64,000 bases of DNA, from the NCBI GenBank assembly GCA_016933155.1, contig JAFGBM010000002.1:1-64000 (forward strand), in the 5' to 3' direction. This document shows positions 3,675 to 13,958 of the stretch, in pieces (position 1 is the stretch's first letter; the number at the start of each line of letters is the position of its first letter). This stretch comes from Demequinaceae bacterium (GTDB taxonomy: Bacteria > Actinomycetota > Actinomycetes > Actinomycetales > Demequinaceae). The notes under the pieces are model-generated. The model made no database searches and was not told the origin of the DNA. It saw nothing but the letters and a program-made list of their open reading frames with translations. Position numbers and translations under genes: made by a program.

Positions 3675-4598
3675 GTGAGCCCACGATCGTCATCCTCCCG
3701 CGGCTCCCGGTTGCGCGACAGGCTGGGCGGCGTTCTGGGCCGACGCCTCCTCTCCGTCTTCGCGGGGCCGGACGTCGACTGGGACGAGATCGAGGAAACC
3801 CTCCTGGCGGCGGACATCGGGACGGACGCGACCGACGACATCCTCGCAGGGCTAAGAACCGCCCTGAAGACGCTCACGAAAGCCGACATCGAGGCCGACC
3901 CCCTCGCCGCGCTTCGCGATCAACTCCTGACCGTCCTCGACCCCGACATCGACCGCTCCCTCGCCATCGGGGAGCCGGGAGACGGGCAGGCGGCCACGGT
4001 CGTCCTTGTCGGCGTCAACGGCGTGGGCAAGACGACGACGCTGGGGAAGCTGGCCAACCTCCTGGTCGAGGACGGGTATTCAGCCCTCATCGGCGCGGCC
4101 GACACGTTCCGGGCGGCCGCGGCCGACCAGGTCGCCACGTGGGGGTCGCGTATCGGCGTCGAGGTGGTGCGCGCCGACCGCGACGGGGCCGACCCCGCCG
4201 CCGTCGCCTTCGAGGCCGCCGAACGCGCACGGGAGACCCCCGTCGACGTCCTCCTCATCGACACGGCCGGGCGGCTCCAGAACAAGCGAGACCTCATGGA
4301 CGAGCTCGGGAAGATCCTCCGGGTCCTCAGGCGTCGGGCGCCCGTCGCCGAGGTCCTCCTCGTCCTCGACGCGACGACGGGGCAGAACGGCCTCGCCCAG
4401 GCCCGCGTCTTCGCCGAGGCCGCCGCCGTGACGGGCATCGTCCTCGCCAAACTCGACGGCTCGGCCAAGGGGGGCATCGTCGTCCAGGTCCAACGCGAGC
4501 TCGGTGTCCCGGTCAAGTACGTCGGGATGGGGGAGCGGGTCGACGACCTGGCCCCCTTCGACCCCGAGGCCTTCGTCGACGGACTCCTCGGCCCCTAG
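3675..4598 (+). CDS. ftsY: Signal recognition particle receptor FtsY
   Basis: 307-residue SRP GTPase that docks ribosome–Ffh complexes at the membrane for co-translational insertion. The N domain is followed by G1 GVNGVGKT (residues 113–120), then DTADTF-like and DTAGR motifs and the late AKLDGSAKGG specificity loop. It ends in the family-typical FVDGLL. The long acidic A domain of many FtsY proteins is absent; there is only a short Ser/Arg-rich leader before the N domain. In many Actinobacteria ftsY follows smc, but here accessory DNA lies upstream. GTG start chosen because it gives the compact N domain. Confidence 0.95.
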   Translation: MSPRSSSSRGSRLRDRLGGVLGRRLLSVFAGPDVDWDEIEETLLAADIGTDATDDILAGLRTALKTLTKADIEADPLAALRDQLLTVLDPDIDRSLAIGEPGDGQAATVVLVGVNGVGKTTTLGKLANLLVEDGYSALIGAADTFRAAAADQVATWGSRIGVEVVRADRDGADPAAVAFEAAERARETPVDVLLIDTAGRLQNKRDLMDELGKILRVLRRRAPVAEVLLVLDATTGQNGLAQARVFAEAAAVTGIVLAKLDGSAKGGIVVQVQRELGVPVKYVGMGERVDDLAPFDPEAFVDGLLGP

Positions 4599-4613: not shown

Positions 4614-4651
4614 TTTACACCCCGGAAACACGGCGGTGCTTCGGAGGAAAC
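4614..4651 (+). promoter_or_regulatory. GlnR-type nitrogen-control box upstream of amt
   Basis: The four half-sites TTTAC, GAAAC, GTGCT and GAAAC begin at 4614, 4625, 4636 and 4647. Each is separated from the next by exactly six bases. This matches the Streptomyces GlnR consensus gTnAC-n6-GaAAC repeated twice with 22-bp phasing, apart from small changes in the two T-rich half-sites. It ends 56 bases before the amt start. It predicts activation of amt–glnK(–glnD) under nitrogen limitation by a GlnR-like OmpR-family regulator encoded elsewhere. Confidence 0.82.
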
Positions 4652-4707
4652 CTCCCTGAGAGACGCTTGGCCTACCAGTTCCCTATATGAAAAGGAGAGG
4701 CCAAGCA

Positions 4708-5994
4708 ATGGAGTTCTCGCTCGATACAGGAAACACCGCCTGGATGATCGTGGCGACAGGACTCGTCCTACTCATGACCCCCGCTCTCGCGTTCTTCTAC
4801 GGCGGCATGGTCCGCAAGAAGTCCGTCCTGAACATGATGATGATGTCCTTCGTTAGCATCGGCACCGTCGCCGTCATCTGGGTTGTCTATGGCTATGGGT
4901 TGACGTTCGGATCGGGGGAGAACTCCTACTGGGGCAACCCCAGCGGTCTGATCGGCCTCAACGGAGTGGAGGACAGTGCCAGCCTCGCGGCCGGCTCCGG
5001 TGTTCCCTTCCTCGTCATGGCGGCCTTCCAGGCCACCTTCGCCATCATCACCGTCGCGCTCATCTCGGGCGCCATCGCCGACCGCACCCGGTTCGCCGCC
5101 TGGGTGGTCTTCACGGTCGTCTGGGTCACCTTGGTCTACTCTCCGATCGCCCACGCCGTCTGGGGTGGCGGGATCCTGGGGTGGGACAACAACCTCACGG
5201 CGACCTCGCCCATCGACTTCGCCGGTGGCACGGTCGTCCACATCAACGCGGGAGCCGCGGCCTTCGCCCTCATCCTCGTCCTCGGCAAGAGGAAGGGATT
5301 CGGCAAGGAGCCGATGCGGCCCCACAACCTGCCCTTCGTCATGCTGGGCGCCGCCCTCCTGTGGTTCGGGTGGTTCGGATTCAACGCGGGGTCGGAGTTC
5401 GCTGCCGACTCCACGGCAGGTCGGGCCTTCCTCAACACCATGGTCGCCCCGGCGCTAGCCCTCCTGGGCTGGATCCTGGTCGAGCGGATTCGGGACGGCA
5501 AGCCGACGTCGCTCGGAGCGGCCTCCGGAATCGTCGCGGGACTCGTGGCGATCACCCCGGCGGCGGCCTCGGTCGACACCTGGGGTGCCCTCGCCATCGG
5601 CTTCGTCGCCGGGGCTCTGTGCGCCCTCGCCGTCGGACTCAAGTACCGGTTCGGCTACGACGACTCGCTCGACGTGGTCGGCGTCCACTTCGTCGGCGGA
5701 TGGGTGGGGACCCTGCTCATCGGGTTCTTCGCCAACCTCGACGAGGGCACGACCTGGGCCGGGGCCGGCGAGACGCTCGCACCCCAGAACGGGCTCTTCT
5801 ACGGCGGAGGCCTGACGCAGTTGGGGACGCAGGGAATCGTGGCGCTCGTCGCGACGGTTGCCTCGTTCGTCATCACGCTGATGATCGCCCTGGCGATCAA
5901 GCACACCATCCGCTTCCGGGTCACGGAAGAGGTAGAGATCACCGGCATCGATCTCGCCGAACACGGCGAGACGGCCTACGAGGAGGCTAAGTAG
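4708..5994 (+). CDS. amt: Ammonium transporter Amt
   Basis: 428-residue ammonium channel/transporter with about 11 transmembrane helices. Typical family landmarks are NTAWMIVATGLVLLMTPALA at the N-terminus, FYGGMVRKKSVL, the first pore histidine in GTVVHINAG and the second in VGVHFVGGWVG. The ATG at 4708 is chosen over the in-frame ATG at 4687 because AAAGGAGAGG sits at 4691–4700, ideal spacing for 4708. It lies two bases before glnK, the usual pairing in which PII plugs the channel when ammonium is plentiful. The GlnR-type box upstream indicates nitrogen control. Confidence 0.95.
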   Translation: MEFSLDTGNTAWMIVATGLVLLMTPALAFFYGGMVRKKSVLNMMMMSFVSIGTVAVIWVVYGYGLTFGSGENSYWGNPSGLIGLNGVEDSASLAAGSGVPFLVMAAFQATFAIITVALISGAIADRTRFAAWVVFTVVWVTLVYSPIAHAVWGGGILGWDNNLTATSPIDFAGGTVVHINAGAAAFALILVLGKRKGFGKEPMRPHNLPFVMLGAALLWFGWFGFNAGSEFAADSTAGRAFLNTMVAPALALLGWILVERIRDGKPTSLGAASGIVAGLVAITPAAASVDTWGALAIGFVAGALCALAVGLKYRFGYDDSLDVVGVHFVGGWVGTLLIGFFANLDEGTTWAGAGETLAPQNGLFYGGGLTQLGTQGIVALVATVASFVITLMIALAIKHTIRFRVTEEVEITGIDLAEHGETAYEEAK

Positions 5995-5996
5995 CC

Positions 5997-6335
5997 ATGA
6001 GACTCATCACAGCAATCATTCAGCCCCACCGCATGGAGCAGGTCCGGGCCGCCCTCGAAGGAGTCGGGGTCACGGGCATGACGATTTCGGAGGCGTCCGG
6101 GTACGGCCGCCAGAAGGGCCACTCCGAGGTCTACCGTGGTGCCGAGTACACGACCGACCTTGTTCCCAAGCTCCGCGTCGAGGTTCTTCTCGACGACGCC
6201 GATGTGGAGGGCACCATCGACGCCCTCGTGGCGTCCGCCCAGACGGGCGAGATCGGAGACGGCAAGATCTGGTCGTGCAAGGTCGAGAACGTCGTCCGTG
6301 TCCGCACGGGCGAACGAGGCAAGGACGCGATCTAG
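5997..6335 (+). CDS. glnK: PII nitrogen regulatory protein (GlnK/GlnB)
   Basis: 112-residue PII protein that reports nitrogen and energy status by binding 2-oxoglutarate and ATP/ADP. The T-loop tyrosine Y51 (RGAEYTTD) is present, so covalent modification by the adjacent GlnD homologue is possible. The C-terminal VRTGERGKDAI is the standard nucleotide-binding end. It starts two bases after amt stops and ends four bases before glnD. The glnK name is chosen because of the link to amt; glnB would be equally correct by sequence. Confidence 0.95.
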   Translation: MRLITAIIQPHRMEQVRAALEGVGVTGMTISEASGYGRQKGHSEVYRGAEYTTDLVPKLRVEVLLDDADVEGTIDALVASAQTGEIGDGKIWSCKVENVVRVRTGERGKDAI

Positions 6336-6339
6336 CACC

Positions 6340-8124
6340 ATGTCCCCTACCACCGGTTCTCACCGATCCCGGTCCGCCGAGGTCCCCCACCCGCAAGGGG
6401 TGGGGGGCCTCGGCCAGGAACGACTTGCCCTTGCAGAAGAGTTGACCGCGCGGGGAGTCGCGGGGGCCGACAGGCGAGCGGCCATGAGCGAACTCGTATT
6501 GAAGCGACTCGAGGAACACTGGACGAGCGTGGGCGGGCCCGAATCGGGGGCGGCCCTCGGGGCCGTCGGGAGCCTCGCCAGGCTCACCATCGGACCCGCA
6601 AGCGACCTCGACCTCGTCATCATCCACGACGGCGAAACCCTCTCGGACGACGAGATCGCGGCCCTCGCCCAGAAGCTTTGGTACCCCATCTGGGATGCCA
6701 AGATCCCCCTCGACCATTCGGTCCGCTCCCTCGCCCAGTGCAGGGACGTCGCCTCTCGCGATCCCATCGCGGCCTCCGGTCTCCTCGACCTTCGACACGT
6801 CGCCGGGGACGCCGCACTCATCGAGAAGGCGCGGACCGCGATCCTCGCGGACTGGAGGGTCACAGCCAGGAAGCACCTGCCGGAACTGCTCGCCGGTGCC
6901 CGCACCCGAGCCGAACGGTTCGGGGAACTGGCGTACCTCATCGAGCCGAACCTCAAGGAGTCGAGGGGCGGCATCCGGGACTACACGAACCTGGCCGCCC
7001 TGACCGCGACCTGGCTGGCCGACCGGCCCCACGGCGCCGTCGATGAGGCAGCCGAACACCTCAAGGACGTCCGGGACGCCCTCCAGGTCGTCACCGGTGG
7101 CCCCCAGGTCGTCCTCGGTCGCCACGTGGCCGAAAAGGTCGCCGCCCGGATGGGATACCGCTCACCCGACGACCTGCTCTCCTCCCTCGCAGACACCGGG
7201 CGGCGCATCGCCTACGCCCTGGACGTCACCGAGCGGAAGGCCAGCCGTGTGCTCGCGGGACCCGAGCGGGGCCACCGAATCTTCCTGGCCCGACACCGCC
7301 GTGTCCCCCCGACCCATACCGCCGTCGCCCCCGGGCTCATCGAGATCGGACCCGACCTCGCCCTCGCCTCCGACGCCCGACCCGAGGACGACGCCCTGCT
7401 GCCCCTCCGCGTCGGCGCCTATGCCGCGAAGACGGGCCTCAACCCGACGCCCCGCCTCCTCGAGGCCCTCCCCAAGACCCCGGGCCTTCCCGATCCCTGG
7501 CCGGCTGAGGCCCTCGAACTGTTCCTCAACCTGCTCCGATCCTCGGACCGGCTCTTCGAGGCATGGGAGGCCCTCGACCTCAACGGGGTCATCGTCCGAT
7601 GGATCCCCGAATGGGAGGGGATCCGGAACCGCCCCCAACGCAGCCCCGTGCACATCTTCACGGTCGATCGCCACTCGATCGAAACCGTGATCCAGGCGGG
7701 ACCCCTCGCCTCCACGGTAGAGAATCCGGACCTTCTTCTTCTCGCCGCCCTGTTCCACGACATCGGCAAGCGTCCGGGGGCCGGAGACCACTCGGAGGCC
7801 GGCGCCGCCCTCATCCCAACCATCGCCGCCAGGATGGGCCTCGCCCCCTCCTTCGCCGAGGACCTCGAGACCCTCGTCCGGCACCACCTCCTCCTCGCCG
7901 AACTCGCCTCCTCCCAGGATCCGGCAGCGCCCGAGACCGTCGCGGCACTCCTCGAACCGCTCGAGTACCGCCCCGCCCTCTTCGACACCCTCCGAGCCCT
8001 CACGGAGGCCGATGCCATCGCGGCCGGTCCGAAGACGTGGAAGCCGTGGAGGCAGGCACTGATCGACACCCTGACCCGGTCGGCACGGGCCAGGCTCGCC
8101 TCCCGGAACCCCGCCAGTAGGTAG
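6340..8124 (+). CDS. glnD: GlnD-type PII nucleotidyltransferase lacking ACT domains
   Basis: 594 residues from the ATG at 6340, four bases after glnK. The nucleotidyltransferase core is near residues 77–96: GSLAR...PASDLDLVII with D89 and D91. An NTase-associated helical region (PNLKESRGGIRDYTNLAA) follows, then an HD domain with HD at about residue 473 (LFHDIGKRPG). In Actinobacteria GlnD modifies PII at the T-loop Tyr (adenylylation) and the HD domain reverses it. The protein ends soon after the LTEADAIAAGPKTWKPWR segment, where other GlnD proteins continue into two glutamine-sensing ACT domains. Those are absent, and no frameshifted remainder fits in the 78 bases before ffh. Confidence 0.85.
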   Translation: MSPTTGSHRSRSAEVPHPQGVGGLGQERLALAEELTARGVAGADRRAAMSELVLKRLEEHWTSVGGPESGAALGAVGSLARLTIGPASDLDLVIIHDGETLSDDEIAALAQKLWYPIWDAKIPLDHSVRSLAQCRDVASRDPIAASGLLDLRHVAGDAALIEKARTAILADWRVTARKHLPELLAGARTRAERFGELAYLIEPNLKESRGGIRDYTNLAALTATWLADRPHGAVDEAAEHLKDVRDALQVVTGGPQVVLGRHVAEKVAARMGYRSPDDLLSSLADTGRRIAYALDVTERKASRVLAGPERGHRIFLARHRRVPPTHTAVAPGLIEIGPDLALASDARPEDDALLPLRVGAYAAKTGLNPTPRLLEALPKTPGLPDPWPAEALELFLNLLRSSDRLFEAWEALDLNGVIVRWIPEWEGIRNRPQRSPVHIFTVDRHSIETVIQAGPLASTVENPDLLLLAALFHDIGKRPGAGDHSEAGAALIPTIAARMGLAPSFAEDLETLVRHHLLLAELASSQDPAAPETVAALLEPLEYRPALFDTLRALTEADAIAAGPKTWKPWRQALIDTLTRSARARLASRNPASR

Positions 8125-8202
8125 GCTGGGCGCAAGTCTGGTCGGCGCCCGCTCCTCGGGTGCCGGGCAGGCCGACCTAGGCGCCGAACCGAAAGGACGG
8201 GT

Positions 8203-9804
8203 GTGTTCGCGACCCTCTCCGACCGCCTCGCCGCGACCTTCAAGAACCTCCGCGGCAAGGGGCGTCTCTCCGAAGCGGACATCGATGCGACCATCCGGGA
8301 GATCCGCCGAGCCCTCCTCGACGCCGATGTAGCCGTCACCGCCGTCAAGGCTTTCACGGGCGCCATCCGCGAGCGGGCCCTCGGGGCGGAGGTTTCCGAG
8401 GCCCTCAATCCCGCCCAGCAGGTCGTCAAGATCGTGCACGAGGAACTCGTCACGATGCTCGGGGCCGAGGCGCGGCCGCTTGCGAGGGCCAAGACCGGCC
8501 CCACGGTCATCATGCTCGCCGGGCTCCAGGGCTCCGGAAAGACGACCTTCGCCGCCAAGCTCGCCCTCCACCTCAAATCCAAGGGCGAGACCCCGTTGCT
8601 CGTCGCGGCCGACCTCCAGCGCCCGAACGCCGTCACCCAACTCGAGGTCGTCGGCGAACGCGTCAACGTCCCCGTCTTCGCCCCCCACCGCGGGGTCACG
8701 TCCGAGGAGGACAAGCCGACGGGAAACCCCGTCAAGGTCGCCCAAGCCGGGGTCAAGGAGGCGGTCGCCAAGCAGCATTCCGTCCTCATCGTCGACACCG
8801 CTGGCCGCCTCGGGGTCGACGCCGAACTGATGCGTGAGGCTGCCGACATCAGGAAGGCGATCTCTCCCCACGAGGTGCTGTTCGTCATCGACGCCATGGT
8901 CGGACAGGATGCCGTCGCCACGGCGAAGGCCTTTCAGGACGGAGTGGACACCACCGGCGTTGTCCTGACCAAACTCGACGGGGACGCGCGGGGCGGGGCC
9001 GCGCTGAGTGTCGCCCAGGTGACGGGCCTTCCCATCATGTTCGCCTCCACCGGCGAGAAGCCGACGGACGTCGAGGTCTTCCACCCGGACCGCATGGCTT
9101 CGCGCATCCTCGACATGGGCGACGTTCTCACCCTCATCGAGCGCGCGGAGCAGACCCTCGACGCGGCCGAGGCCGAGCGGATGGCCAAGAAGGTCGCCAA
9201 GGGCGAGGACTTCACGCTCGACGACTTCCTCTCCCAGATGCAGCAACTCAAGAAGATGGGCTCGATGGGGAAGATGCTCCAGATGCTTCCCGGGATGGGC
9301 CAAGCCAGGGAGGCGATCGAGAATCTCGACGAGAGGGAGCTCGTCCGCACCGAGGCGATCATCCAATCCATGACCCCGAAGGAGAGGGAGGATGTCAACC
9401 TCCTCAACGGGTCCAGGCGGAGCAGGATCGCCCGGGGATCGGGGACGACGGTCGTGGCCGTCAATTCGCTCGTCAAACGCTTCACCGAGGCGAAGAAACT
9501 GATGAAGACCATGGCGAAGGGGGGCACGCCCGCCCTGCCCGGAGCTCCGGCGGGCTTCGGGGGGGCCGGATCCCTCGGCGGACCGGCCTTCGGGCCGGGT
9601 GGGGGCTACGGGGGGTCGAAAAAGGGGAAGCAGGCGAAGCGGTCGAAGGCAAAAAGCGGGAATCCGGCGGTGAGGGCGAGGCAGGAGGCGGAGGCGGCCC
9701 GACGCGCGGCTGAGCGGGCGGCGGGGATGCCGAAGACCGCCCCGGGAAGTGCTTTCGGCCTCGGGTCTCAAGCTTCTTCTGGACCTTTCGCCGACGGCGA
9801 GTGA
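8203..9804 (+). CDS. ffh: Signal recognition particle protein Ffh
   Basis: 533-residue SRP54-type GTPase with GTG start behind GAAAGGACG. The N domain opens MFATLSDRLAATFKNLRGKG. G1 is GLQGSGKTT (about residues 107–115), followed by DTAGRLGVD and the TKLDGDARGGAALS loop. The methionine-rich M domain (residues ~320–450) binds signal peptides and 4.5S/6S RNA; it contains FLSQMQQLKKMGSMGKMLQMLPGM and SRRSRIARGSG. The C-terminal ~80 residues are Gly/Ala-rich and basic, an actinobacterial extension. It works with FtsY. Confidence 0.96.
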   Translation: MFATLSDRLAATFKNLRGKGRLSEADIDATIREIRRALLDADVAVTAVKAFTGAIRERALGAEVSEALNPAQQVVKIVHEELVTMLGAEARPLARAKTGPTVIMLAGLQGSGKTTFAAKLALHLKSKGETPLLVAADLQRPNAVTQLEVVGERVNVPVFAPHRGVTSEEDKPTGNPVKVAQAGVKEAVAKQHSVLIVDTAGRLGVDAELMREAADIRKAISPHEVLFVIDAMVGQDAVATAKAFQDGVDTTGVVLTKLDGDARGGAALSVAQVTGLPIMFASTGEKPTDVEVFHPDRMASRILDMGDVLTLIERAEQTLDAAEAERMAKKVAKGEDFTLDDFLSQMQQLKKMGSMGKMLQMLPGMGQAREAIENLDERELVRTEAIIQSMTPKEREDVNLLNGSRRSRIARGSGTTVVAVNSLVKRFTEAKKLMKTMAKGGTPALPGAPAGFGGAGSLGGPAFGPGGGYGGSKKGKQAKRSKAKSGNPAVRARQEAEAARRAAERAAGMPKTAPGSAFGLGSQASSGPFADGE

Positions 9805-9814
9805 CACTTAGCGC

Positions 9815-10417
9815 GTGACGAGGTCGATTCGGTTCGGGGGAGTGGTCCTCCTCGCGGCAGCCCTTCTTTCGGCGTGCGGGGGGACGGAGCCGAGCCCGGG
9901 GCCGAGCACCAGCCCCACCCCCGACGCTTCCCCGACCGCGAGCCCGACGGTCGATCCCTCGCCCTGGCAATTCGAGCCGGGGGACTGCACCATGAGCGGG
10001 CCCGATCACACCGGCCCCTGCGTCCCCGAGATCGACCTGCCCATGAACGCCGACGGCACCGCCGGGTCGGGGTGCACCCCGCCATCCGACGCCACCCTCC
10101 CCGACGGACTGTGGTTCGGCTACCTCGCCGACGCTAGCCCGGACTCCATCGCCTTCGACCTCGCCTGCAGCTACCACTTCGACTCGGAGCAACACCTGGC
10201 CAACCTCGAGGGCTCGGAATTGGAGACCTATACCTGGACGAACGACGAAACCGACATCCGGGTCCTGGGAGTGTCCGACAGTGCCGGGTACTGCGTCGAG
10301 TGGGAGTGGATCCCCTGGATCGAGGCGCCCCTGGCCGACCCGTCCCTCGTGGGTCCCGTCTGGATCGGGGTCAACTCTGGGGTGGTCACCGAGATCGTCG
10401 TACCCCCCTACTCGTAG
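9815..10417 (+). CDS. Secreted lipoprotein, paralogue of the lipoprotein at 13338
   Basis: 200 residues with a lipoprotein signal peptide (lipobox LLSAC) and a Pro/Ser/Thr-rich spacer (SPGPSTSPTPDASPT). A compact domain follows, containing GSGC, LPDGLWFGYL and SIAFDLAC and a C-terminal GPVWIGVNSGVVTEIVV. The same landmarks recur in the lipoprotein at 13338 (GSGC, LPDGIWFG, EIAFDMEC, PIVWLAVNGGVITSF), so the two are paralogues. It directly precedes the ApbE-like gene and may belong to the flavin cassette. Function unknown. Confidence 0.75.
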   Translation: MTRSIRFGGVVLLAAALLSACGGTEPSPGPSTSPTPDASPTASPTVDPSPWQFEPGDCTMSGPDHTGPCVPEIDLPMNADGTAGSGCTPPSDATLPDGLWFGYLADASPDSIAFDLACSYHFDSEQHLANLEGSELETYTWTNDETDIRVLGVSDSAGYCVEWEWIPWIEAPLADPSLVGPVWIGVNSGVVTEIVVPPYS

Positions 10418-10430
10418 GACGGGCGACACG

Positions 10431-11246
10431 ATGCCGGACCAGGGGAGCCACGGGGGCCGCGTCGTCCGGACGGTCGTCGAGGCGATGACGATGCCTTTCG
10501 CCGTCGAGGTCGTCGGGGCGGGGGAGGCGGAGGCCGGGGAGGCGATCCGGGCCTTTCAGGCCGACCTCGAGTGGGCGGAAGCGACCTTCAGCCTGTGGCG
10601 GCCGGATAGCCCCCTGGCGCGGTTCAACAGGGGCGAGGTCAGCCTCGACGAATGCCCACCCGCCGTCGGGGAGGTCGTGGCGGAATGCGAGCGGTATCGC
10701 GAGGAGACGGACGGCTACTTCGATGCCAGGCGACCGGATGGGGTGCTCGACCCGACGGGCATCGTCAAGACCTGGGCCGTCGTGCGGGCCTCGCGGAGGC
10801 TTGACGCGCTCGATGCGGCCGGATGGATGGTCGGCGCTTCCGGGGATGTGGTGGTATCCGGGGTCAGCGAGGCCAGCGGACCGTGGCGCGTCGGCATAGC
10901 GGACCCTCGACTGACGGGGAGCCCCGAGGGGAGGCCCGTCCTGGACGTGATCGCCCTGGGTGGGCGCCACCGGGCGCTCGCCACATCCGGGACGGCCCAG
11001 CATGGGCAGCACATCTGGAATCCCCGGACCGGGGAGGGAGAGGCTGCCCTGGTCCAGGCGAGCGTCGTCGGGGCAGACCTGGTCGAATGCGACGCGTGGG
11101 CGACGGCGATCATCGCCGGGGGAAGGGAGGTGGCGCTTGCCGCCCAGCGCGGGGGGCTAGAGGTGTTGACCATTCCCGATGCCGAATCGACGGGACCCCT
11201 CCGGGGGGAGGCGAGCCCCGGCTGGCCGAGCCTCGGAGCACCCTAG
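10431..11246 (+). CDS. ApbE-like FAD:protein FMN transferase
   Basis: 271 residues. ApbE enzymes transfer FMN from FAD to a Thr of an acceptor protein in the exported electron-transfer chain. Visible family features are FQADLEWAEATFSLWRPDSPLARFN, the DPTGIVKTWAVVRA signature, ASGDVVVSG in place of the usual GGD, and ATSGTAQHGQHIWNPRTG near the C-terminus. No signal peptide or lipobox is seen at the chosen ATG (10431), although most ApbE acts outside the membrane, so the export route is unclear. Two genes downstream is a protein with the flavinylation motif, its likely substrate. Confidence 0.85.
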   Translation: MPDQGSHGGRVVRTVVEAMTMPFAVEVVGAGEAEAGEAIRAFQADLEWAEATFSLWRPDSPLARFNRGEVSLDECPPAVGEVVAECERYREETDGYFDARRPDGVLDPTGIVKTWAVVRASRRLDALDAAGWMVGASGDVVVSGVSEASGPWRVGIADPRLTGSPEGRPVLDVIALGGRHRALATSGTAQHGQHIWNPRTGEGEAALVQASVVGADLVECDAWATAIIAGGREVALAAQRGGLEVLTIPDAESTGPLRGEASPGWPSLGAP

Positions 11247-11301
11247 GCAGGTTCTCGCCACCTGAGAGGGCTCTCAGAATCCTCCGGCGATACTTGAAGG
11301 C

Positions 11302-12705
11302 ATGGCCACCACGGCGATCCCAACCTCGTTGCCCACGGGCACGCACGGGGTTCCCGTCGATCGGGACAGGGCGATCCGCGCCAGGCGGCTGTCCCTCTGG
11401 CGCGACGGCCTCGAGGCCGCGGCCTGGCTCGTGACCGTCGCCGGGATTTCCTTCTTCCTCGCGAGCGGCGCCATGGTGTGGACGGTGCGGGCCGATGTCC
11501 TCAACTCCCTCGGAAGGCTCCTCGGCATCATCGCCACGGTCCTCATCCTCGTGCAGGTCCTGCTCGCTTCGCGGGCGCCCTGGATTGAGCGGGCCCTGGG
11601 CCACGACAAGGCCCTCAAACTCCACGGGGCGATGGGCCAGCCCGTCTTCTTGATCCTCGTCGCCCATGCCGCGTTCCTGACGATCGGATACGGCTCCCCG
11701 ACGGGACGAGACATCGTCGCCCAGACCGCCTACTTCCTGGGCCACACCCGCGACATCGCCCTTTCGATCATCGCTCTGGCCATCCTCCTCGTCGTCGCCG
11801 TCACCTCGATCGCCGCGGCCCGCCGCCGATGGCCGTATGAAACCTGGCACGCCATCCACCTGTTCGCCTATATCGCCATCGCCATCGCCGTGCCCCATCA
11901 GTTCACCGACGGCACGACCTTCAAGTACAACGCCTGGGCCCGGGGGTTCTGGGCATCCCTCTACGCGATCGCTTTCGGCTCGCTGCTCCTGTGGCGGGTT
12001 CTCGTGCCCGCCGTCCGGGCCCTGCGTCATCGACTGGTCATCTCCGGCATCGAGCGGCACGACGATGGCAGCGTCTCCGTCACCATGGTCGGCCGACGCC
12101 TCGACGGGTGGAACGCCCGACCGGGCCAATTCTTCCTCTGGCGTTTCTACACAAAGGAACTCTGGCTGACGGCCCACCCCTATTCCCTCTCCGCCGTCCC
12201 CGACGGCCGAAGCCTTCGGATCACGGTCAAGCCGCTCGGGGACGACTCCGCCGCCGTCGGAAGGCTGAGCCCCGGGACCCGGGTCTCCGCATCGGGCCCC
12301 TACGGCCGCTTCGTCCACGATGCCCGGGTCCGGCCAGGTCTCGTGCTCGTCGGCGCCGGAATCGGCATCGCCCCCGTCAGGGCGATGATCGAGGGCTACC
12401 GGGCGGGCGACGGGCAATGCGACGTCGTCGTGCGGGGCAGCAGCGACAGGGAGGTGCCCCTCCTCGACGAGATGAGGACCCTCGCGGCGGAGCGGGGCGC
12501 ACGCATCCACGAGGTGTTCGGCCACAGGGGTGACGGCTGGTCGACGGTGGACGGCCCGCAAACGCTCGCCCTGCTGGTCCCGGCCCTTCCCGATTGCGAC
12601 GTGTTCGTGTGCGGCCCGGAGGCGTGGGCCGACCTCGTGAGGGAGGACGCCCTCGAATGCGGCGTCGCCCGGGAGGCGATTCACGTCGAGGAGTACGACT
12701 GGTGA
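11302..12705 (+). CDS. Ferric-reductase-like transmembrane flavocytochrome
   Basis: 467 residues. The N-terminal half has about six transmembrane helices with histidines suited to b-haem ligation (LKLHGAMGQ, LVAHAAFL, ETWHAIHLFAY, AVPHQF). The C-terminal half is an FNR-like flavin/NAD(P)H reductase: HPYSLSAVP binds FAD, LVGAGIGIAPVRAMI is the nucleotide loop and VFVCGPEAWAD the terminal CGP motif. It likely moves electrons from cytosolic NAD(P)H across the membrane to the FMN-binding partner encoded next. Gaps of 55 and 10 bases to its neighbours suggest one operon. Confidence 0.9.
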   Translation: MATTAIPTSLPTGTHGVPVDRDRAIRARRLSLWRDGLEAAAWLVTVAGISFFLASGAMVWTVRADVLNSLGRLLGIIATVLILVQVLLASRAPWIERALGHDKALKLHGAMGQPVFLILVAHAAFLTIGYGSPTGRDIVAQTAYFLGHTRDIALSIIALAILLVVAVTSIAAARRRWPYETWHAIHLFAYIAIAIAVPHQFTDGTTFKYNAWARGFWASLYAIAFGSLLLWRVLVPAVRALRHRLVISGIERHDDGSVSVTMVGRRLDGWNARPGQFFLWRFYTKELWLTAHPYSLSAVPDGRSLRITVKPLGDDSAAVGRLSPGTRVSASGPYGRFVHDARVRPGLVLVGAGIGIAPVRAMIEGYRAGDGQCDVVVRGSSDREVPLLDEMRTLAAERGARIHEVFGHRGDGWSTVDGPQTLALLVPALPDCDVFVCGPEAWADLVREDALECGVAREAIHVEEYDW

Positions 12706-12715
12706 GGGGGATCCG

Positions 12716-13201
12716 ATGAAGACGTCACGGTTGGTGATGGTCGCCGGGGCATCGGCGACGATGCTCGCGATCGGGTGGCGGGCGGGGACGGCTCCCTTCC
12801 CCAGCCTCGTGGTCGCCGATGATCCGATTGGGGGCGCCCCCGCCTCCGGTTCCGTCGTCGATCCGTCGCCGTCCGGGCCGGTCCCGACGGGGGAATCCTC
12901 AACCGGATCCAACCCGGCCGGGCCGTCGGGCACCTTCGTCGGAAATGCGGTGGATACCGCATTCGGGACGCTGCAGGTGCAGATTGTCGTCGCCGACGGT
13001 GAAATCGCCGACGTCCAGCCGCTCGCACTCGGGTTCACGGACTCCAAATCCCGCCAGATCAACGCCGCAGCCGTGCCGATCCTCGAGCAACGGGTTCTGA
13101 CCGCACAGTCCGCGGACGTCTCCTATGTTTCGGGGGCGAGCTACACGAGTCAGGGATACCTCGCCTCTGTCGCGAGCGCGATCGTGAAGGCGGGAATCTG
13201 A
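12716..13201 (+). CDS. Exported FMN-binding-domain protein
   Basis: 161 residues. An N-terminal hydrophobic export segment (LVMVAGASATMLAIGW) is followed by a Pro/Ser/Gly linker and an FMN_bind domain from about residue 72 (VGNAVDTAFGTLQVQIVV). The motif SGASYTSQGY at residues 139–148 matches the S/TGA(S/T)xT flavinylation site, with T144 as the predicted FMN acceptor. It completes the set of transferase, membrane electron donor and flavinylated acceptor. A short domain of this type is common beside ferric-reductase-like proteins in Actinobacteria. Confidence 0.87.
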   Translation: MKTSRLVMVAGASATMLAIGWRAGTAPFPSLVVADDPIGGAPASGSVVDPSPSGPVPTGESSTGSNPAGPSGTFVGNAVDTAFGTLQVQIVVADGEIADVQPLALGFTDSKSRQINAAAVPILEQRVLTAQSADVSYVSGASYTSQGYLASVASAIVKAGI

Positions 13202-13337
13202 CCCACCTGCGCTCTCTCCCGCCGGAAGAAATCCGGTCATATCACCCGTGCCTGTCAGGTCCGGGAGTGCTAGCGTCGGGGGTGTGAGAGGAAGGCCCGA
13301 CGCATCGAGGCGCACCGCTTCCCGGAGAGGACACACC

Positions 13338-13958
13338 ATGAGACTCAAGCACCCGACCGCCCTGGCCGTGATCGCCTTTGCGGCGAGCCTGACGGCCTGC
13401 AGCGGGGCGACCCCGGCCACCACCGTGACCGCAACGTCGGGCCCGACCCCGACGGTCACCCCCGTCGTCACCCCCGTCGTCACCCCCGTTGTCACCCCGC
13501 CGAGCCACTTCTACACCCTCGACGAGACGTGGAGCCTCAGCCCCCAGTCGCAGGCCCAGGGCTCGGGTTGCGCCCCCGGCGCCGGCACCCTGCCCGACGG
13601 GATCTGGTTCGGTCAGGTGACCTCATGGTCGTCGACGGAGATCGCCTTCGACATGGAGTGCTGGTGGACGGGGACCGGGGCCGACGCCCAGGCGGCGGCA
13701 CACGGCGACGAGGTCAACAACGACTACTACATCACGAACGACGCGACGACCGTCCGCCTCGTCTCCCTCGACCCCGCGGCCTTCGGGCTCAAAGCCGATG
13801 TCCTCAACCTGTCCAACACCGCTTCGTGGGTGATGTACACCCCGGCCCAGGTCATCGCCGATCCCGGCGGCACGATGCCCGTGGCGAACCCTCCCATCGT
13901 GTGGCTCGCCGTCAACGGAGGAGTGATAACGTCCTTCGCCGTCCAGTACGTCCCCTAG
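13338..13958 (+). CDS. Secreted lipoprotein, paralogue of the lipoprotein at 9815
   Basis: 206 residues from the ATG at 13338 (GGAGAGG upstream). A signal peptide ends in the lipobox SLTAC. A spacer made of repeated VTPV units follows, then a domain sharing GSGC, LPDGIWFG, EIAFDMEC and VWLAVNGGVITSF with the lipoprotein upstream of the ApbE-like gene. The pair brackets the flavin electron-transfer genes. It may anchor or accept electrons in that system, but no cofactor motif is visible. A hairpin follows the stop. Confidence 0.75.
   Translation: MRLKHPTALAVIAFAASLTACSGATPATTVTATSGPTPTVTPVVTPVVTPVVTPPSHFYTLDETWSLSPQSQAQGSGCAPGAGTLPDGIWFGQVTSWSSTEIAFDMECWWTGTGADAQAAAHGDEVNNDYYITNDATTVRLVSLDPAAFGLKADVLNLSNTASWVMYTPAQVIADPGGTMPVANPPIVWLAVNGGVITSFAVQYVP
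13455..13498 (+). repeat. 12-bp in-frame tandem repeat (VTPV spacer)
   Basis: About three and a half copies of GTCACCCCCGTC lie within the lipoprotein gene and encode (VTPV)3-VTPP. They form the extended linker between lipid anchor and folded domain. Copy number could vary by slippage without a frameshift. Confidence 0.85.

Follow-up and report, generated by a model that had tools for sequence, protein, structure and literature searches.

The GlnD protein encoded in the amtB-glnK-glnD operon of the window (the whole stretch of DNA analysed, 64 kb) ends directly after its catalytic core, and the two C-terminal ACT domains are absent. Judged from its sequence, the known part of this protein would be an orthologous GlnD with three of the four defining domains, and the new part would be the absence of the sensor pair. 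In textbooks, GlnD is the protein through which bacterial nitrogen control senses glutamine. A clade that keeps the enzyme and loses the sensor represents a natural deletion experiment, which allows one to ask whether a glutamine input at this enzyme is necessary, which of the two activities becomes unregulated and whether 2-oxoglutarate and ADP acting on PII are enough. No description of an ACT-less GlnD was found in titles and abstracts of the open-licence literature; it may be in print elsewhere.

Domains, end point and operon of the short GlnD

The glnD frame was translated into 594 residues and contained no internal stop. Pfam matches were obtained for GlnD_UR_UTase (44.2 bits, cut-off 21) and for the HD domain (42.8 bits), and NTP_transf_2 scored 20.8 bits, just below its cut-off of 21. 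In a Pfam scan of the 594-residue protein no ACT family appeared at E values up to 1, and with the same Pfam library the full-length relatives L004, L005, L011 and L032, used as a control, gave ACT matches over the cut-off. The best NCBIfam model, PRK03381.1, matched over positions 20 to 570 of 782 with 571.3 bits, and some 210 C-terminal positions of its alignment are absent from GlnD. The claim of the earlier note that the nucleotidyltransferase (NTase) and HD domains are kept while the ACT domains are missing is thus confirmed by both libraries. All curated NCBIfam cut-offs were missed (571.3 against 631 for PRK03381.1, 384.4 against 519.4 for TIGR01693.1 and 368 against 799 for PRK00227.1), so that annotation may give short GlnD proteins a wrong label or treat them as regulated by glutamine. 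Compared to a four-domain GlnD, the protein has the N-terminal nucleotidyltransferase, GlnD_UR_UTase and the HD domain with its metal ligands, together with a Tyr51-bearing PII partner encoded in the same operon, and it lacks the two C-terminal ACT domains and scores that reach the curated cut-offs.

The HD motif is formed by residues 473 and 474, which leaves 120 residues to the C-terminus, in line with the distance of about 120 residues given previously. An AlphaFold2 model of the protein (P0001) reached a mean pLDDT of 91.9 and a pTM of 0.89 and finishes with a helix at residues 569 to 589. For L004, a full-length relative, the model (pLDDT 83.1, pTM 0.76) showed the core elements in the same order; its last core helix, residues 562 to 580, is equivalent to the final helix of P0001 and is followed by a low-confidence stretch at 583 to 591 and then by the ACT region, where two alpha/beta folds with ACT strands and helices were seen at about 608 to 684 and 715 to 797. 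In these predicted structures GlnD ends where its catalytic core ends; in the full-length relative, the linker leading to both ACT domains starts at this point. The gap between the glnD stop and ffh cannot hold a remnant of the lost region, as had been stated before, because named relatives have roughly 160 to 250 residues past the same point.

A Foldseek search with the GlnD model returned an archaeal CCA-adding enzyme and GlnE domains; no solved GlnD structure for comparison was found by sequence search. GlnE has the NTase and GlnD_UR_UTase folds in common with the short GlnD (structural matches 1v4a and 3k7d). It differs in having two NTase modules and no HD domain, whereas the short GlnD has one NTase, one GlnD_UR_UTase and one HD domain. 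The single NTase module and the HD domain therefore speak against the frame being GlnE, and the genome contains a separate frame of 1006 codons with two GlnD_UR_UTase matches.

The features of the locus are collected in Table 1. The block order ftsY-amtB-glnK-glnD-ffh is conserved and was seen in relatives with short as well as with long GlnD.

Table 1. Features of the glnD locus, with positions in the window.
Feature	Position	Strand	Evidence and remarks
ftsY, syntenic neighbour	3675..4598	+	TIGR00064 311 bits
GlnR box, a-b-a-b half sites	4614..4651	+	36 bases 5' of amtB; 15/18 fixed positions
amtB, ammonium transporter	4687..5994	+	Pfam Ammonium_transp 403 bits; TIGR00836 434.8 bits
glnK, PII protein	5997..6335	+	Pfam P-II 98.6 bits; Tyr51 codon 6147-6149
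glnD, predicted ACT-less PII nucleotidyltransferase / nucleotidyl-removing enzyme, 594 residues	6340..8124	+	Pfam, NCBIfam, AlphaFold2, gene order, homologues
Nucleotidyltransferase core of GlnD, residues 66-135	6535..6744	+	motif GS-x10-D-x-D (G77, S78, D89, D91); Pfam NTP_transf_2
HD domain of GlnD, residues 438-562	7651..8025	+	Pfam HD 42.8 bits; H438, H445, H473, D474, H516, D558
Last helix of GlnD catalytic core, residues 569-589	8044..8106	+	stop directly after; model secondary structure (P0001, L004)
Gap between glnD stop and ffh, 78 bases	8125..8202		sequence; too small for domain remnant
ffh, syntenic neighbour	8203..9804	+	TIGR00959 566 bits

The GlnR consensus quoted in a passage of PMC10704036 is gTnAc-n6-GaAAc-n6-GtnAC-n6-GAAAc. 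Upstream of amtB we found TTTAC-n6-GAAAC-n6-GTGCT-n6-GAAAC, which agrees at 15 of the 18 fixed positions and is the sole site in the window, on either strand, with a score of at least 15. When the 400-base upstream stretch was shuffled 2000 times by mononucleotide, a score of 14 was never reached, and the GlnR box that had been proposed for this operon is real. Boxes upstream of amtB in eight other loci of the family scored 14 to 16 in seven cases, at 69 to 97 bases before amtB, and 12 in the eighth (L158). The GlnR gene itself is present as a frame at 115.5 kb of contig C12 (genome G000), with the actinobacterial GlnR structures 8hih and 8hig as best structural matches.

Spread and age of the ACT loss

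A GlnD match was found in 46 of the 47 genomes of the GTDB family, the sole exception being G046 (1.1 Mb, 89% completeness). In five genomes (G011, G023, G038, G041 and G042) GlnD was fragmentary or split; in two genomes of family f1, G038 and G011, the gene is interrupted and lies in at least two frames, by sequencing error or decay. All 29 other family loci that were read had a GlnD ending 0 to 19 residues past the matched region. An assembly error, a frameshift or a pseudogene is hardly credible as the origin of the short form: the genome is a 15-contig assembly, which would leave room for errors, but the same end point recurs in independent genomes, both within the family and in six others, and the frame is intact with a fold predicted at high confidence.

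For the order, a profile built from 12 full-length GlnD proteins was run against 198 genomes, and the matches were counted by hand. This gave 59 short GlnD, defined by a match ending near profile position 571 to 620, 64 with an ACT region, three unreadable fragments (G167, G203 and G219) and 72 genomes without a GlnD match. In the ACT-bearing class, 61 matches extend at least to position 775, with core and ACT region on one contig and strand, and the class also takes in G084 and G094, where the match is split over contigs, and G099, with an ACT-region fragment only. The short form is common to the family of the window (the own family in what follows) and six further families: it was counted 14 times in f1, 4 in f3, 7 in f4, 14 in f9, 2 in f12, 12 in f13 and 6 in f20. 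ACT-bearing GlnD was counted once in f2, 4 times in f5, 10 in f8, 11 in f11, 12 in f14, 12 in f15, 11 in f17 and 3 in f18, and no family among the 198 genomes had both forms. Twenty short loci read from families other than the own one end 0 to 34 residues past the match. The nearest full-length relatives within the order share 47 to 50% identity with the short GlnD. In some of the short-form families glnD has often been lost completely, the gene being absent from 10 of 14 sampled genomes in f3, 7 of 14 in f4 and 6 of 13 in f20.

Across the class 98 genomes were searched, 92 of them outside the order. There, 77 matches extend into the ACT region, 70 of them unbroken and seven split or partial, two are cut by contig ends (G246 and G252) and 13 genomes have no GlnD; short GlnD was accordingly seen in none of the 77 readable cases outside the order. 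Among 61 named GlnD loci, 57 carry tails of 159 to 253 residues and three (L052, L055 and L059) are truncated at the end of a contig. The one remaining locus, L006, encodes a short GlnD and is labelled a Bifidobacteriaceae MAG; in the GlnD tree it is placed with f20.

In a tree of 65 GlnD catalytic cores (580 columns, ACT region left out) all 30 short rows formed a single clade, supported at 99/99, and the ACT trait changed once on this tree in 100% of 200 bootstrap trees. In a tree of FtsY and Ffh (60 rows, 751 columns) three changes of the trait were required: 26 of the 29 short rows came together weakly (62/71), and three f20 rows, which have under half of their columns filled and one of which sits on a long branch, fell outside. 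An AU test on the FtsY and Ffh data did not reject a single short clade (p-AU 0.271). The single short clade in the GlnD tree points to one old loss of the ACT pair, and for GlnD a single loss appears well supported by these alignments. Repeated independent losses find no support in the GlnD tree with its one change, and a recent loss within the genus is ruled out by the family and order surveys. We judge the loss to be old because the short form is common to the own family and six others and forms one GlnD clade; the short GlnD is a stable variant kept through much later divergence, as opposed to a product of decay.

Conserved residues and control of GlnK modification

The NTase residues G77, S78, R81, D89 and D91 and the six HD residues listed in Table 1 are invariant in 59 of 59 short GlnD proteins, a set of 30 tree rows and 29 further family loci that partly repeat the tree genomes. 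The catalytic roles of these residues are presumed from the folds. In GlnK, Tyr51, Gln39, Lys58, Gly87, Lys90, Arg101 and Arg103 are invariant in all 30 short-GlnD rows and also in the 33 full-length-GlnD rows with a readable glnK, so that Tyr51, said before to be kept in this PII, is kept throughout. Positions 39, 58, 87, 90, 101 and 103 are those we take to bind ATP or 2-oxoglutarate; Gln39 and Lys58 of PII are named in a passage of PMC4285133. The conserved residues suggest that the short GlnD is most likely a working nucleotidyltransferase and nucleotidyl-removing enzyme for GlnK. A separate observation concerns GlnK residue 9, which is Gln (in the motif IIQPH) in 30 of 30 short-GlnD rows; with full-length GlnD it is Gln in two of 33 rows, both of family f11, and Lys in the other 31. 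This distribution probably reflects shared ancestry.

Retention of glutamine sensing, either through a separate protein acting on GlnD or through a new site in the core, seems improbable to us. Other ACT proteins are encoded in the genome, which gave eleven Pfam ACT matches, eight of them over the cut-off. Nine of the eleven are clear and belong to named enzymes: IlvN, homoserine dehydrogenase, Rel, PurU, aspartate kinase (two domains), prephenate dehydratase, prephenate dehydrogenase and phosphoglycerate dehydrogenase, the last one below the Pfam cut-off. The two others are weak, with E about 0.25. A profile of the GlnD ACT pair found no match spanning both domains in the 47 family genomes; its best match scored 33 bits, and Rel and IlvN, its matches in the own genome, were hit weakly, a point in favour of a sensor acting in trans. 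An ACT pair encoded as a separate gene, raised earlier as a way in which the proposal could fail, was thus found neither with Pfam ACT in the own genome nor with the ACT-pair profile in the 47 genomes. As for a new glutamine site, the alignment of short and full GlnD contained no meaningful column conserved differently between the two in the core. Residue 313 was considered as a clade-specific replacement for the ACT input and discarded, as it lies in a poorly aligned, low-confidence loop and is filled in a single full-length row.

From the absent ACT domains, the lack of a two-ACT gene and the kept catalytic and ligand residues we infer, in agreement with the earlier note, that glutamine sensing by GlnD has very probably been lost or replaced. 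What has to be revised is the scale and date of this event, since the loss extends over the whole family and six more. The reading we lean towards, with modest confidence, is that the ACT pair was removed once at a domain border and that the enzyme still works in both directions, switched by the ligand state of GlnK and regulated in its amount by GlnR. It builds on what was read from the sequence, namely the missing ACT pair, the intact core, the operon, the clade and the lack of a two-ACT gene in the searched family genomes; the mechanism itself we infer. An ancestor of several families within one actinobacterial order would have lost both glutamine-binding C-terminal ACT domains in a single event. 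The N-terminal domain would attach a nucleotide to Tyr51 of GlnK, AMP being expected by analogy to other actinobacteria, and the HD domain would take it off again. The balance between transfer and removal would follow the ligands of GlnK, 2-oxoglutarate with ATP as opposed to ADP, and GlnR would set the amounts of AmtB, GlnK and GlnD. Nitrogen status would thereby enter through 2-oxoglutarate, energy and transcription and not through glutamine at GlnD.

This ligand-based switching is suggested because, with the glutamine site gone, the state of the GlnK T-loop is left as the switch; that the PII T-loop changes with 2-oxoglutarate, ATP and ADP is described in parts of PMC4285133. For other actinobacteria, sections of PMC4285133 and PMC3612183 describe adenylylation of GlnK at Tyr51 by GlnD, and the signal for this adenylylation is presented as not verified in a section of the latter. 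PII tagging in the families with short GlnD probably runs without a direct glutamine signal. It is an evenly balanced question for us whether this clade of actinobacterial families, more specifically, modifies PII reversibly without glutamine acting on GlnD, by means of a one-signal switch for 2-oxoglutarate and energy that has been stable since the single loss.

In 2010 Zhang et al. reportedly observed that deletion of the ACT domains from E. coli or R. rubrum GlnD left removal unregulated and strongly lowered net transferase activity, and a balanced two-way cycle without ACT domains is therefore not assured. Doubtful in our view, but to be taken seriously, is a one-sided short GlnD, in which removal or transfer would run constantly and the state of GlnK would be set mainly by the amount of GlnD under GlnR. 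The reported ACT deletions in proteobacterial GlnD would suggest unregulated removal, the conserved GlnR box on the operon would allow the amount of enzyme to track nitrogen, and the disappearance of glnD from many genomes of f3, f4 and f20 looks as if its role had weakened. However, in a one-sided enzyme one of the two active sites would be expected to drift, and both are invariant in all 59 proteins; Tyr51 and the ligand sites of GlnK are unchanged as well. Nitrogen signals could also be carried by GlnE and GlnR, in which case GlnK modification would be unimportant.

Other GlnD types and neighbouring genes

The two-ACT GlnD of actinobacteria, represented by PRK03381.1 (782 positions; the Streptomyces GlnK adenylyltransferase), occupies the same place in the operon and has the same NTase, GlnD_UR_UTase and HD domains; the short GlnD differs by lacking its roughly 210 C-terminal positions with both ACT domains. 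The proteobacterial enzyme, with E. coli GlnD as example, resembles the short GlnD in its two catalytic domains and in having Tyr51 of PII as its target. Parts of PMC4285133 describe UMP transfer by its first domain and removal by the HD domain, switched by glutamine. In contrast, the short GlnD has no ACT domains, and by analogy to other actinobacteria transfer of AMP would be expected.

Corynebacterium GlnD (PRK00227.1, 693 positions) lies in the same type of gene neighbourhood as the short GlnD, and GlnK adenylylation has been demonstrated in Corynebacterium according to a passage of PMC4285133. No ACT domain was detected by Pfam in the two loci scanned. None of the 14 Corynebacterium loci scored above 12 bits with the ACT-pair profile, whereas all 43 other named loci with a tail scored 137 bits or more; 15 of these 43 had served to build the profile. 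Unlike the short GlnD, the Corynebacterium protein keeps a C-terminal region, though a shortened one, of 159 to 189 residues (for example L034:7510-7992 and L039:7522-7998) and forms a separate lineage in the GlnD tree. Profile alignment of this region with the ACT pair by hhalign gave a probability of 65% and an E value of 5.9e-5, which marks it as a distant relative of the pair. By sequence, one actinobacterial lineage has thus lost the ACT pair of GlnD, and in Corynebacterium the pair has been remodelled; the remodelled C-terminus is relevant to the question of glutamine sensing by the actinobacterial GlnD that has been studied best.

Some further genes of the window were noted. At 28-1640 the window, and with it contig C13, begins inside a frame that resembles the last part of an RHS-type repeat protein and gives a weak Ntox44 match below the Pfam cut-off; the frame that follows at 1155-1640 has no Pfam match and appears to be membrane-embedded, and the two are possibly a toxin/immunity pair. 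Downstream of ffh, small secreted-looking proteins without a Pfam match are encoded at 9815-10417 and 13248-13958. They flank consecutive genes at 10281-13201 for ApbE, a ferric-reductase-like membrane oxidoreductase and an FMN_bind protein, which are likely a cluster for flavin-based electron transfer.
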